The notes beneath the pieces are model-generated. The model did not search any database. It was not told the DNA's origin and saw only the letters and a program-made list of their open reading frames with translations. A stretch of 64,000 nt of DNA from Candidatus Roseilinea mizusawaensis (GTDB taxonomy: Bacteria; Chloroflexota; Anaerolineae; J036; Brachytrichaceae), in contig JAEANN010000042.1 in NCBI GenBank assembly GCA_016841965.1, forward strand, positions 62,001 to 126,000. The letters run 5' to 3'. Made by a program: the position numbers and the translations under genes. Positions 30,492 to 38,706 of the stretch are shown here, piece after piece; the stretch's first letter is position 1; every line of letters begins with the position of its first letter.

Positions 30492-31106
30492 CTACCCCCT
30501 ATCTCGTCGCGACTGATTCTGCTGACAGGTCCGCCCAGATATGCTCAGACACACTGGCGAGGGGTCGGGCAGTTGTGGCAATTGTCTGCGCAGCGCACAC
30601 AGGGGAAGCCCGATAACGTTGAGTGGGCAGCCGCGAATCTCTGCCACAGGGTGGAAGCCGGGGTGCTGCACGGCGTATGCGCCGGCTTTGTCGAAGGGGT
30701 CTCCTGTAGCAATATAGGCTTCGATCTCGTCATCCGTGTAGTCGCGCATGATTACCAGGGATGACACGATCTCCATTCTTTCCTGCGCGCCGTGCTTGAC
30801 CACAACGCACGATTGCACTTCGTGGGTGCGACCGCGCAAGCGCCGCAACATGCGCCGCGCTGCCTCGGCATCGGCCGGCTTGTTCAACATATCGCCGTCG
30901 AGCAACACAGTTGTGTCGGCGGCGATCACGATGTCGTGATCTGAGTTTGCCGCGCGGGCCTTGAGCAGCGTGATGCGATGCTGCGTGTCGAGGGGCGTCT
31001 CGCCGGGCAGCGGTGTCTCATCCACATTGGACGGGCGTACTTGGAATGCCACGCCCAGGGCTGCCAGCAATTCGCGCCGGCGGGGAGAAGCAGAGGCGAG
31101 AATCAC
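30492..31106 (-). CDS. maf: Maf-like nucleotide pyrophosphatase
   Basis: This 204-aa protein hydrolyses non-canonical or modified nucleoside triphosphates and is often linked to septum control. The start [18 protein letters not shown] is the family signature. [19 protein letters not shown] and [14 protein letters not shown] carry conserved Asp and Lys residues. About 25 poorly conserved residues extend the C-terminus. Its start overlaps the mreB stop by 4 nt, which implies translational coupling and joint expression with a cell-shape gene. Confidence 0.93.
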
Positions 31107-32110
31107 ACCATCGGTTCCGTGCGCTTGAGGACTTCGATATTTTCAAGCGCACGGCCGGTGCCAAGCGCCACACAGGCCATCGGCGCATCGGCCACATAGG
31201 CCGGCACGCCAACTTCGCGCGACATGTATTCGTCCAACTTGCGCAACAGGGCCGTGCCGCCGGTCATGGCCATGCCGCGGTCGATGATATCTGAGGCTAG
31301 TTCGGGAGGTGTGCGTTCGAGCACCGAGCGCACACAGGCGGCGATTTGAGACAAAGGCTCTTGCAGGGCCTCGGTAATCTCGGTAGAGGTGAGTTCGATC
31401 GTGCGCGGCAGGCCGGTCACCTGATCGCGGCCCTGCACCTGCATCACCAGCTCATCTTCGAGAGGCATGGCGCTGCCGATCTGAATCTTGATATCTTCAG
31501 CGGTCGGCTCGCCAATGGCCAGGTTGTACTTGCGGCGGATGAAGTTCTGGATGGCCTCATCGAGTTTGATGCCCCCCACGCGCACCGAGTTGGCAACAAC
31601 GATGCCGTTCATCGAGACGACGGCAGCTTCAGCGGTGCCGCCGCCCAGGTCGAGCACGAGATTGCCGGTGGCTGTATCGACCGGCAGGCCGGCGCCCAGC
31701 GCGGCTGCGAGCGGCTCGCGCAACAGGTAGACTTCACCGCCGCCGGCTTCGATGGCTGCCTCGCGCACGGCCCGGCGCTCTACGCTCGTCACGCCATAGG
31801 GCACCCCAATCACAATGCGAGGGGGCAGAAACTTCAGCCCTTTCACACGGGCGACGAAGTAGCCCAGCATGCGCTGAGTGACCTGATAGTCAGCGATCAC
31901 GCCGTCGCGCACGGGCCGAGCCACTTCGATTTCGTCAGGGGTGCGGCCATACATTTGCCGGGCCGCCTCGCCAACCTCCACGATCTTTTCTTCGCGGCTG
32001 ATCATCGCCACGATCGAGGGTTCCTGGATCACGATGCCCTTGCCACGCAAGTAGATGACTACGTGCACCGTGCCCAGGTCAATCCCGATTTCGGCCCGCA
32101 ACAAGCTCAT
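31103..32110 (-). CDS. mreB: Rod shape-determining protein MreB/Mbl
   Basis: This 335-aa bacterial actin guides lateral wall synthesis. Motifs are the phosphate-1 loop [18 protein letters not shown], the phosphate-2 region [17 protein letters not shown], and adenosine-binding [27 protein letters not shown] is typical of MreB. mreC and mreD do not follow; maf does, overlapping by 4 nt. The gene lies 79 nt after atpC on the same strand and may be read from the ATP synthase promoter. Confidence 0.94.
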
Positions 32111-32189
32111 TGTGATCGCCAGGTTCTGAATGAGTGGGGGTACAGAGGCTAGATGCGCCGGCCATGTTCGGGCGCATGTCCGACGCTCA

Positions 32190-32618
32190 CTAGCTCGGCA
32201 GTTCTGTGCGTCGCGTCGAGCGGCGATTGGCCGCTTTCAGGCGCGCTTCGCTTTTGCGCAACGCGGTTTCCAGGCGGAAGAAATCCTCTTTGTTCTGGGG
32301 GGCGTTCTTGAGCATCTCTTGCGCGCGCAACCGGGCAGCCTCGGCGCGAGCAATGTCGATCTCGTCGGCGCGCTCGGCGCTATCGGCTAAAACAATCACA
32401 TGGTCGCCCAGAATATCGATGAAGCCGCCGCCGATGGCAAACTCCTGGTAATCGTTGCCGATCTTAACCCGCAACACGCCTGGCTTGAGGGTAGAGAGCA
32501 CCGGCGCGTGCTTGGGCAAAATCCCCATGTCGCCGTCGCCGCCCGGCACATTGATCATGTCAACGTCGCCTTTGAATACCTCGCGCTCGCCTGTTACGAT
32601 TTCCAGAGTCAGTGGCAT
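32190..32618 (-). CDS. atpC: F1 ATP synthase epsilon subunit
   Basis: This 142-aa subunit links F1 rotation to the c-ring and can inhibit ATPase activity. The N-terminal beta barrel contains [21 protein letters not shown] and [20 protein letters not shown]. The C-terminal helical hairpin begins near residue 86 with [16 protein letters not shown]. The start is ATG 32618 ([10 protein letters not shown]); an upstream ATG at 32681 adds residues outside the family. It is the last ATP synthase gene of the cluster, 59 nt after atpD. Confidence 0.94.
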
Positions 32619-32677
32619 GAGAACTCGCTCGCTTGGTGATCGACTCAATCCTTGAAAGACGCAATCGCCGCAATTCT

Positions 32678-34096
<1,419 letters not shown>

Positions 34097-34244
34097 CTAA
34101 TGCTCCGTTTCTGGTATTCACCGTTGGTTTTTGACGTATCTTGTAGGTTTGCCTCGCGGCGCTTGCACAGGCTCGATTGGGCCGGCATGCACAGCCGCGA
34201 GATCAGCAATTCAGTCTCACACTGTCTCACACGGACTCACACTG

Positions 34245-36026
34245 TCACTGTGCCTGCAAGACAACATATACAGGCAACCCGCTCCGCTCGTGGGCGATGA
34301 AAGTCTCGACGACTTGGCGTCCCATGCTCTCTGCAATCTGTGTAAACACTAACCGCCGATTATAAACGGCAAACTGATCCCAAAGCACGATATACCGACG
34401 AGAGGGGTCAGCCAGCATCTGCTGCGCGCTCTGTCGAAATGTGTCGTCCGGCTCGGGCGAGAATCCAAACATCTCGACCGGGCGCACCCGATCAGCGGTG
34501 AGCAGGCGCACGTTCTTCTCGATGCCCCAGTCGAGCGCCACCGGCTCCACAATGCCCTGCGCATCCAGATAGTCCGCCAGCTTGTAGATGGCGTCGGAGA
34601 AGCGGCCCGAACCGCCCATCAGCCCAAGCTGTTCATGATATTGCTGATTGACCCACACGTCGCGGCTGAGCGGCAGCGCGATTAGGCTAATCGCCAGCGC
34701 GCTGCTCACCAGCTTCAAGCGGTCGTCGCCGGCGCGCAACACAATCTGCACACCCGCCTGCCCCAACCATAGGGCTGCCACAGCCATTACCATCTGAGGC
34801 AACGGGAAAAGCAGAAAGAAATGGGTCGCCCACAGATCGGACACAGTGAAGGCGCTGATTGGAAGATAGAGCGTGATGCAAGCAATCAGCGTAGCCCACT
34901 TGCGCGATTGGGGACGCTTGAGCGCCAAAGCCGAGCCAACCACGACAGACGCAACAAAGGCCGGGACTGCATAGACATTACCATAGGGAACCGGCGCCAA
35001 AAACCAAAAGTAGCTGCCGTTGAGAAAGACGGCGAAGTCTTGCAATCGCTTGTCGAGATTGGCCAGCAGATTGCGATTGTCGATGCCATATTGCGTCGGC
35101 GCGAAGAGCGACCGGAATAGCAAATCGAGTGTGGCCGGCGGTTGTCCAAGCGCCAGGCCGGCCAGGTTGAAGTACAAAAACGGCGCCGCCCCGATCGCAA
35201 ATCCCAGGATGAGCCACGGCGCTGCGCGCAACAAGTGCGCCACTGCATCAACGGGGCGGGAGCGCGTCACTGCCCAGATCCCCCCCATTACACCGAGCAG
35301 AGCAATCCACCACAAAAAGATGATTTTGGCCCACAGCCCCAGGCCCAGCAGAACGCCGGCCGCCAGCAAGATCAGACGTGGGTAGCGCATCAGATGTGGG
35401 GGCTGCAAGCCAGGGGCCAAGCCGCGCCGCCATCGATCCAAAAGCAGCCAGCTCCCTAGCGAAAACACCGTCATGATGGATGTCACCGTGATGCCCTGCC
35501 GGCTGAACCAGATAAACGACGGGTTGACGGCCAGCAGCAGCGCCGTGAGCAGCCCTGCGGCCGGCCCAAACCACACTCGCGCAATGGCGTATGCCAGAAC
35601 AATGGTGACCGCCGAGAACAGAATGGGAGACAAGCGAGCTGCCGCCACGCCCGGCCCCAACACCAGCATGAATGGCAATGTCACATAGCCGTTGAGACTG
35701 CCCATGTAATCCATGAGCATGACTGGATAGGAGTGCCCGCCAATCGTCACGCCGATGCCGCGCAACAGGGGTGTGGGGGCGCCGCGCAGGATGTCCAGCA
35801 TGGGCGTAAGGTCCAAGGCCTCGTCATAGTAGAGGCCAGGCAGATCGAGCTGGCGCAAAGCGATGGACAAAAACAGCGCGACACAAGCGGCCAGCGTAGT
35901 CGCATGGAGCAAGTTGAACGTGGCCCGTCTACCCAAAGCGCGCCCCGCCTGCGTGTCAGGACGAAGGTGCGCGACAGGAGCAACTGTTGGCACTCCGTCG
36001 TCCGTCGTCCGTTGTGCAACGCTCAT
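34245..36026 (-). CDS. GT39/PMT-like membrane glycosyltransferase inside the F1 genes
   Basis: This 593-aa multi-pass protein has about eleven hydrophobic segments. Just after the first helix it carries LPGLYYDEALDLTPML, whose acidic residues match the first-loop Asp/Glu motif of polyprenyl-phosphate-dependent mannosyltransferases. Later FIWFSRQGITVTS is also typical. A soluble C-terminal part (about 480-590) follows. It probably transfers a sugar to a surface protein or glycan. Its start overlaps the atpG stop by 4 nt, so it is translationally coupled to ATP synthase genes, an unusual position. Confidence 0.8.
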   Translation of the reverse strand: MSVAQRTTDDGVPTVAPVAHLRPDTQAGRALGRRATFNLLHATTLAACVALFLSIALRQLDLPGLYYDEALDLTPMLDILRGAPTPLLRGIGVTIGGHSYPVMLMDYMGSLNGYVTLPFMLVLGPGVAAARLSPILFSAVTIVLAYAIARVWFGPAAGLLTALLLAVNPSFIWFSRQGITVTSIMTVFSLGSWLLLDRWRRGLAPGLQPPHLMRYPRLILLAAGVLLGLGLWAKIIFLWWIALLGVMGGIWAVTRSRPVDAVAHLLRAAPWLILGFAIGAAPFLYFNLAGLALGQPPATLDLLFRSLFAPTQYGIDNRNLLANLDKRLQDFAVFLNGSYFWFLAPVPYGNVYAVPAFVASVVVGSALALKRPQSRKWATLIACITLYLPISAFTVSDLWATHFFLLFPLPQMVMAVAALWLGQAGVQIVLRAGDDRLKLVSSALAISLIALPLSRDVWVNQQYHEQLGLMGGSGRFSDAIYKLADYLDAQGIVEPVALDWGIEKNVRLLTADRVRPVEMFGFSPEPDDTFRQSAQQMLADPSRRYIVLWDQFAVYNRRLVFTQIAESMGRQVVETFIAHERSGLPVYVVLQAQ

Positions 36027-36937
36027 GCGCGCAATTGATCGGTTGCGGCGGCCTGTTTCAGTGCTTGCTCCAGCGCGCTGGTTCCGCCGGCAATGTCGAG
36101 CAGCTCGTTGGTGATGCCCTGCTGGCGAGCCTTGTTGTAGCTCAACGTCAGGCTGAAGATCAGGTCGCTGGCGCTGTCTGTGGCGTTGCGCATGGCAACC
36201 ATGCGCGCGGCATGTTCGCTGGCGAGCGATTCCAGCACAGCTACATAGACCTGCATTTCTGTCAGGCGGGGCAGCAGGCCGTCCAGGATTTCGACCGGAC
36301 CAGGCTCGAATTCATACGCCGGGCGCGGGCCGCTTTTGGACAAGTCGCCGGCCAGATCATCAGCAGCCAGGGGGAGCAGCCGGCGAATTACCGGACGCTG
36401 GGACACCATGCTGCGGAATTCGGTATAGGCCAGATAGACTTCGTCACACCGGCCATCCAGAAAATCATGAATCAGGGTGCGGGTGGCGGGGGTGGTATCA
36501 AGTAAGCCGGGGCGCGCCGGCAAATTGGCGAATTCGGCCACGATTTTTCGCCCGCGCCGATGCAGGAAATCACGGCCCTTGCGCCCGATGGTCACGTAAC
36601 TGACTGGCTTGCCGTATTGTTGCGCAAAGTCAAACGCTTCTCGGGCCACATTGATGTTGAATGCGCCGCACAGGCCACGATCCGATGTGATCAACAGAAT
36701 ATAAGCACTGTTGACCACGTCACGTCGGGTAAGCAAAGGATGACGCGTCTCGCCGCCGGCGAGCGCCGCCACATCGGCCAGCAATTGACGCGCCTTGCTA
36801 GCATAGGGCCGTGTGCCTTGCACAGCGTCTTGAGCGCGGCGCACCTTGCTGGCGCTGACTGCTTCAAGCGCGCGGGTGATCTGGCGAATATTTCTGACGC
36901 TGCGGATGCGCCGACGGATTTCTCGTGCTGTTGCCAT
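36023..36937 (-). CDS. atpG: F1 ATP synthase gamma subunit
   Basis: This 304-aa central rotor shaft begins MATAREIRRRIRSVRNIRQITRALEAVSASKVRRAQ (seen in part) and ends ITNELLDIAGGTSALEQALK, the two conserved helices that form the coiled coil. ITSDRGLCGAFNINV is the central signature. It follows atpA by 62 nt. The ATGA overlap with the next gene couples the glycosyltransferase to it. Confidence 0.95.
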   Translation of the reverse strand: MATAREIRRRIRSVRNIRQITRALEAVSASKVRRAQDAVQGTRPYASKARQLLADVAALAGGETRHPLLTRRDVVNSAYILLITSDRGLCGAFNINVAREAFDFAQQYGKPVSYVTIGRKGRDFLHRRGRKIVAEFANLPARPGLLDTTPATRTLIHDFLDGRCDEVYLAYTEFRSMVSQRPVIRRLLPLAADDLAGDLSKSGPRPAYEFEPGPVEILDGLLPRLTEMQVYVAVLESLASEHAARMVAMRNATDSASDLIFSLTLSYNKARQQGITNELLDIAGGTSALEQALKQAAATDQLRA

Positions 36938-36999: not shown

Positions 37000-38706
37000 T
37001 TAGCCAGACCAGCCCCGATTGAACGCTTCGATAGCCAGACGCAGTTTGGCAATGGTGTCATCGCTCAGCCGCTTTTCGTCCATGATAGCCTTGTTGATGT
37101 CGGGGTAAGTTGTCTCCATGTATTTGATGAAGCTTTCCTCCCAGGCTACCACACGACTGACCGGTACTTTATCCAGATAGCCGTTTGTCACCGCAAACAG
37201 CGCGGTGACTTCAGCAGCCAGCGTGCGCGGCTCGTATTGGCGCTGCTTGAGAATTTCTGTTAGCCGGCGGCCGCGATCCAGCGTCGCCTGAGTTGTCTTG
37301 TCCAGGTCGCTGCCGAAGCTGGCAAATGCTTGCAGCTCGCGGAACTGCGAGAGTTCGAGTTTCAGCCGGCCGGCCACCTGTTTCATGGCGCGGGTTTGCG
37401 CATCGCCACCGACGCGGCTGACGCTGAGGCCAACACTGATGGCCGGGCGAATACCGGCGTTGAACAGGTCGGTCTCTAGGAACAACTGTCCGTCGGTGAT
37501 CGAGATGACGTTGGTGGGCACGTAAGCCGAAATATCGCCCAACTGCGTCTCAATGATTGGCAGAGCGGTCAAAGAGCCGCCGGAGCGTGGATTGCGCACG
37601 AGTTTGTATCCCTCGCCAAGCGCCTTGAGATCGTGCCTGGCCTGCTCTTCGCCCAGCGCGTCGGTGTAAATCTTGCCATTGACACTTTCGCCGTTGCCCC
37701 ACTCCGAAGAGTCCTCTTGCTTGCGAATGACGAATTCGGGCGCCAGGCGAGCAGCGCGTTCGAGCAGACGTGAATGCAAATAGAAGATGTCGCCGGGGTA
37801 CGCTTCACGGGCCGGCGGACGGCGCAGCAGCAGGGACACCTGGCGATAGGCATAGGCATGCTTGGTCAAGTCATCGTATACACACAGCGCGTCGTTGATG
37901 ATCTGGCCTTGCACCAGCACGCCATTCTCCATCACCTCTTCGCCCATCGCCGCGCCGGCATAGGGGGCGATGTATTGCAAGGCAGCAGCATCGGAGGCGG
38001 CAGCCACGACGATGATGGTGTAATCCATTGCGCCGTACTTTTCCAAGGTGGCGACGACGCGCGCGATCTGGGCCAGTTTCTGGCCGATGGCGACGTAGAT
38101 GCACACCATGCCTTTGCCTTTCTGGTTGATGATGGTGTCGACGCACACGGCGGTCTTGCCGGTGCTGCGATCGCCGATGATCAGCTCGCGCTGGCCGCGC
38201 CCGATTGGGATCAGCGCGTCGATGGCTTTGATGCCGGTTTGCACCGGCGTGTCGACATTGGCGCGCTTGACAACGCCGGGGGCGATGCGCTCCAGAGGAC
38301 GGAATTTGGTGGTGTTGATCGGCCCTTTGCCATCCAGGGGCCGGCCCAATGGATCGACCACACGACCGATCAACGCTTCTCCAACCGGCACAGAAATAAT
38401 GCGGCCGGTGGAGCGCACGGTGTCGCCCTCTTCGATATCCTGGTAATCGCCCATGACGATCACGCCGACTTCATCCGGCTCCAGGTTGAGGGCCATACCC
38501 AGCTTGCCGCTCTTGGTGAATTCCACCAACTCAGAAGCCTGCACGTTCTTCAAGCCGCTGCAACGCGCAATACCGTCGCCGATCTCAACGACTGTGCCAA
38601 CATCCACGGCTTCCAACGTGGGGGCAAATTGTTCAATCTGGGCGCGCAGGGCTTCAGCGATATTGTTCAAATCCATACCGCTGGCAGGCGAATCCGCACG
38701 AATCAT
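37000..38706 (-). CDS. atpA: F1 ATP synthase alpha subunit, with an insertion
   Basis: This 568-aa regulatory nucleotide-binding subunit is about 55 residues longer than usual. The phosphate loop is GDRSTGKTA (about 179-187), with Ser in place of the usual Gln. Most of the extra length is an insertion near residues 325-373, between [11 protein letters not shown] and [14 protein letters not shown] smaller one lies near 258-268. GGAGG is 6 nt before ATG 38706, which supports the long start. No atpH or F0 genes precede it; the upstream gene encodes a SurA-like protein. Confidence 0.95.

Follow-up and report, generated by a model that had tools for sequence, protein, structure and literature searches.

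The genes for the F1 sector of ATP synthase run canonically in the order atpA-atpG-atpD-atpC. The atp operon of Rhodopseudomonas blastica is a probable precedent for an extra gene of unrelated type between those encoding the gamma and beta subunits (atpG/atpD); a literature search returned no paper on it, the one hit being a porin reference. A glycosyltransferase inside an atp operon was likewise not described in the open-access papers searched, as covered by titles and abstract openings. Among the membrane glycosyltransferases themselves, residues D55/E56 of ArnT and D77/E78 of a protein mannosyltransferase (PMT), located between TM1 and TM2, are known to belong to the active site, according to the published account (PMC7801869).

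The present study concerns a gene for a GT-C membrane glycosyltransferase (hereafter GT) in a stretch of 64,000 nucleotides from Candidatus Roseilinea mizusawaensis, to which we refer as the window. Here the canonical order is broken, in that atpG is not directly followed by atpD and the GT gene lies between the two; none of the 14 class-level outgroup F1 loci read carries GT within its atpA-atpG-atpD-atpC run. The locus is a modest, lineage-specific operon variant, in which an ordinary kind of enzyme occupies an unusual, old and stable place.

Architecture of the locus and its encoded enzyme

The conserved run lies on the minus strand of the window in the order atpA-atpG-GT-atpD-atpC-mreB-maf. 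The identities of the atp genes are firm, resting on profiles from both Pfam and NCBIfam: atpA (F1 alpha, 37000-38706; TIGR00962, 740 bits), atpG (F1 gamma, 36023-36937; PF00231, 307.6 bits; TIGR01146, 300.4 bits), atpD (F1 beta, 32678-34096; TIGR01039, 764.9 bits) and atpC (F1 epsilon, 32190-32681; PF02823 and PF00401). The GT gene, at 34245-36026, encodes 593 amino acids and was recognized from the ORF list, a fold model and an invariant Asp68-Glu69 pair; a spacer of 148 nt (34097-34244), which carries the Shine-Dalgarno (SD) sequence of atpD, separates it from that gene. Downstream of atpC stands mreB (31103-32110; PF06723, 433 bits) and the run ends, by synteny, with a gene at 30492-31106 that is probably maf-like, as read from the sequence. 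The adjacency of atpC and mreB (window 30492-32681) is class-wide, being found in 13 of the 14 outgroup loci.

Two smaller features of the locus deserve mention. The profile matches of atpC, as well as most of the matches in relatives, start near residue 22 of the listed ORF, and the real start is probably an internal ATG some 63 nt (about 21 codons) after the listed TTG, whose use (32618-32681) entails an overlap with atpD. Positions 34210-34247, where the GT-atpD spacer begins, hold three near-copies of GTGTGAGAC, which are absent in the two relatives G001 and G002.

The window belongs to contig C59 of a 59-contig genome (G000) and contains the sole atpG and atpD locus found in that genome. 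The Fo genes are located on a separate contig, C45, beside nuoM/N-like genes, where one 262-amino acid ORF (L168:5240-6028) encodes a fused b-delta subunit with ATP-synt_B and OSCP domains. The composition of GT resembles that of its neighbours (GC 0.604, GC3 0.727) and distant relatives of GT exist within the class, which together rule out a foreign island. By the Nei-Gojobori method, three genome pairs within the window's genus give dN/dS values for GT of 0.166, 0.177 and 0.185, rough estimates given the high dS of 0.76-1.24, compared with 0.025-0.034 for atpD. GT is under purifying selection.

An AlphaFold2 model of GT, built from nine sequences (pLDDT 83.9, pTM 0.84), has its best matches among solved structures in ArnT, STT3, Pmt4, ALG12 and AglB, all of them GT-C enzymes. 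The top 30 VIA-align rows consist of GT-C enzymes or of complexes containing one, with Z values of 18.3-22.7, where values within 1 of each other are tied. The modelled structure assigns GT to the ArnT/PMT/STT3 type of GT-C fold enzymes. The Asp68-Glu69 pair stands just after the first long helix (residues 26-61) and recurs unchanged in all 69 homologues aligned, comprising 27/27 family, 23/23 class and 19/19 paralogue rows. In conjunction, the modelled GT-C fold and the active-site Asp-Glu pair make it likely that GT is a polyprenyl-phosphate-sugar-dependent transferase.

The designation 'GT39-like', given to this gene in the sequence-only reading, is too specific, as the GT-C fold class alone is supported. 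We took the Pfam gathering cut-offs of PF02366 and PF13231 as the test of GT39/PMT membership and GT falls below them: PMT_2 reaches 18.2 bits (E 0.003), under its cut-off of 26.1 bits, and a Pfam scan of GT at E 0.001 returned no families. A distant kinship with the PMTs is nevertheless likely, because PMT_2 (GT39-type) is found in eight of nine aligned GT homologues at E up to 0.1, with a best value of 6.5e-13. The NCBIfam model Agl23 matches GT weakly (19.9 bits against a cut-off of 126.25), and weak matches to archaeal STT3 were also obtained.

Gene order across the family

GT is present in all 28 genomes of the family, which spans eight genera, and the insertion is old, family-wide and inherited by the whole family. 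The exact order atpG-GT-atpD occurs in 16 of the 28 (G000, G001, G002, G007, G008, G013, G014, G017, G018, G020-G024, G026 and G027). The placement of a membrane glycosyltransferase between atpG and atpD, as proposed from the window alone, is thus borne out by coordinates, fold and synteny. The arrangement is not new in the lineage, and the spread of both gene and order comes close to the universality among relatives that the sequence-only reading had named as counting against it.

In six further genomes GT precedes atpD without an adjoining atpG. One of them is cut short, the contig of G009 ending inside GT so that its atpG side cannot be read; in the other five (G004, G005, G011, G016 and G025) a different gene or ORF adjoins GT or atpG, with a P450 or GAPDH gene upstream of GT and, downstream of atpG, a gene for NusA, an MGDG-synthase-like enzyme, an ORF without family or SecA. 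Two members of genus g5 (G006 and G012) retain atpG-GT without atpD, and their atpD-atpC-mreB genes reside on other contigs, maf being seen beside this displaced group in G006 only. In the remaining four genomes, all of genus g2 (G003, G010, G015 and G019), native F1 is gone and GT stands before mreB, with gaps of about 34 nt in G010, 221 nt in G019 and 395 nt in G003; maf is also seen in three of these four loci, the contig of G015 being cut. An F1 neighbour is therefore missing on one or both sides of GT in 11 of the 28 family genomes, and GT lies within the mreB run in 26.

The only close atpD of the g2 genomes is 63-64% identical. In the two g2 loci that were read through, in G003 (L063) and G010 (L069), this atpD belongs to an operon of atpB-E-F-H-A-G-D-C and an atpI-like ORF that immediately follows a nuoN-like gene, the gene names being read from the sequence except for the four F1 genes, which were matched in the synteny search. 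With native F1 gone at the mreB locus and a divergent nine-gene operon elsewhere, g2 has exchanged its ATP synthase while GT stayed in place. This genus constitutes a natural experiment, in which GT beside mreB marks the old F1 site after the swap.

Origin, expression and competing explanations

Of 249 class genomes searched, 71 match GT at E 1e-40, including 55 from outside the family; among the 31 of these 55 for which the places of both genes were listed, GT and atpD share a contig in none. Residues Q59, D106, Q177, W341, T394 and H464 are common to the family GTs and to 83-100% of the class GTs; the same six occur in 0-21% of the in-family paralogues (27-36% identity), which were set aside as orthologues of the class GT on account of these missing diagnostic residues. 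In 18 of the 25 class loci that were fetched (L111, L114-L120, L152, L154, L155, L157, L159 and L161-L165), the GT-C gene forms a close pair with a gene for a FecR-like membrane protein, located within 250 nt upstream of GT on the same strand and often overlapping it. The protein from L111 is FecR by Pfam (39.5 bits, cut-off 24); since the other members score under the cut-off or not at all, 'FecR-like' is used here in the sense of homologous to the L111 protein. The pair was not described in the open-access papers searched by titles and abstract openings, and it points to an undescribed couple for envelope glycosylation in the class. No FecR-like gene lies directly upstream of GT in any of the 28 family loci. 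A homologue is present elsewhere in 26 of the 28 family genomes and, in four of five loci read, has a biotin carboxylase gene beside it or close by (one confirmed by Pfam, three by eye) and no GT.

The simplest history would be that the ancestor of the family took GT into its F1 operon from another locus. A tree of 69 proteins places the 27 GT rows of the family on one side of a branch (100/100). Since the branch leading to them is long, at 1.45, and paralogues from within the family also fall on their side (100/97), the family GTs are likely rather than proven orthologues of the FecR-linked ones; the paralogue row of G009, with a branch of 10, distorts the root of this tree. The GT tree does not follow lineage throughout: it joins G010 to genus g5 (100/99), away from the three remaining g2 rows, whereas the mreB tree keeps g2 together (100/99). 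The conflict probably reflects a degree of exchange, paralogy that is hidden or an error caused by long branches.

The ATG of GT overlaps the TGA of atpG by 4 nt (ATGA), an overlap already recognized in the sequence-only reading that holds in three of three genomes of the window's genus and is absent from other genera, where GT starts some 10-180 nt after atpG; G007 offers a possible GTG/ATG start at -4/-1 relative to atpG. Predicted SD pairing in the window amounts to -9.5 kcal/mol for atpA, -5.9 for atpG, -5.8 for atpD and 0.3 for GT, against a background mean of -3.0. The lack of an SD sequence at the GT start fits translation by coupling. The relatives G002 and G001 give 0.1 and -4.1 kcal/mol, respectively, and the latter duplex indicates that missing SD pairing is not uniform. 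A consensus scan detected no promoter-like or terminator-like match inside 34097-34244. By consensus only, a promoter-like match was recorded upstream of atpA (38824-38796), such matches being no commoner in the sequence than in shuffles (3 versus 3.6), as was a terminator-like match after maf (30501-30482). Coupling of GT to atpG and co-transcription with the F1 genes are both likely in the window's genus, to judge from this layout, and the 'energy-gene control' of GT initially proposed is possible.

In our preferred reading, to which we assign a probability of roughly 0.7, the only F1 locus received an envelope GT-C gene between atpG and atpD, which was inherited by the family after relocation from its FecR-like partner and hitchhikes on the expression of its hosts. 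The family ancestor would have carried GT as the downstream partner of the FecR-like gene, as many class members still do; GT would then have moved into the F1 operon, leaving the FecR-like gene behind at another locus. Most likely the enzyme sits in the cytoplasmic membrane, where the Asp-Glu pair that follows TM1 would lie at its active site, and moves a single sugar from its polyprenyl-phosphate carrier to an acceptor on the outer face. In the window's genus its translation from the F1 mRNA probably proceeds by termination-reinitiation at the stop of atpG. The F1 neighbourhood would thus supply expression to a gene whose product is neither a component nor a modifier of ATP synthase; GT is probably a passenger rather than a part of the energy machinery. 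Its dN/dS of 0.17-0.19 and its retention beside mreB in g2 argue that GT has a selected function of its own, one that needs no ATP synthase neighbours.

An artefact of assembly, whereby a join or chimera places GT between atpG and atpD, might be entertained for a genome in 59 contigs, but its probability is negligible: 16 of the 28 family genomes, each assembled independently and among them the single-contig G021, repeat the order, which excludes such an error and settles a concern raised when the locus was first noted. The genomic context also invites the view that GT functions with mreB and maf as an envelope growth module, the F1 genes being bystanders and the class-wide atpA-atpG-atpD-atpC-mreB run having offered a home near mreB. 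In its favour, GT belongs to the mreB run of 26 of the 28 genomes and lies directly beside mreB after the loss of native F1 in g2 (G010, G019 and G003). We consider it unlikely, as GT remained with atpG in g5 (G006 and G012), where a different contig carries atpD-atpC-mreB(-maf), mreB is absent near the class orthologues in the loci fetched, and inertia in gene order would by itself account for these data.

A direct tie to ATP synthase, in which GT glycosylates an exposed part of F1Fo, tunes the ratio of F1 subunits or couples envelope glycan output to the energy state, would account for the position between gamma and beta, for the ATGA overlap without SD sequence in three of three genomes of the genus and for the retention of GT in all 28 family genomes. 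Such a tie is very unlikely: the four g2 genomes lost native F1, have a different nine-gene operon and keep GT, and five genomes have the arrangement broken towards atpG, two towards atpD. That atp neighbours are lost or split in relatives counts against any required link between GT and energy metabolism, as does topology against this tie, since F1 is cytoplasmic and GT-C active sites, as established for ArnT and PMT, face outward. It is also rather improbable that selection holds GT in the F1 operon, with termination-reinitiation at the atpG stop tying envelope glycan synthesis to F1 output; were this so, the building of the cell surface would follow energy capacity in the window's genus.

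Comparison with known systems

The best full-length fold match of GT is ArnT from Cupriavidus metallidurans, a lipid-A aminoarabinose transferase (PDB 5ezm/5f15; Foldseek E 1.6e-8), which VIA-align superimposes with a Z of 22.5 and an rmsd of 3.8 over 441 aligned residues, at an identity of only 12%. Production of lipid A is not known from this lineage. The ArnT (GT83) family model gave no match to GT in an NCBIfam scan at E 0.1 and a sequence search of the PDB returned nothing at E 1; fold comparison alone yielded matches. PMT/PMT_2 and the STT3/AglB/PglB oligosaccharyltransferases have the GT-C fold class in common with GT, with Z values of 18-23. The Asp-Glu pair that follows TM1 in GT fits the position of D55/E56 in ArnT, as that site is described in the account cited above (PMC7801869).

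With respect to its genomic setting, a core operon can evidently be interrupted by the gene for an unrelated membrane enzyme for the lifetime of a family. Insertion into this operon is not unique in the class, as three outgroup genomes illustrate. An AsnC-domain ORF occupies the atpG/atpD junction, the same as that used by GT, in G039 (L093:6291-6572); an aspartyl-protease-like ORF is found at this junction in G044 (L096:6715-7215); and two Uma2 ORFs lie between atpA and atpG in G036 (L091:4426-5683). These outgroup inserts are small ORFs, each in one genome read, whereas GT is a membrane enzyme of 593 amino acids that has been kept across eight genera.
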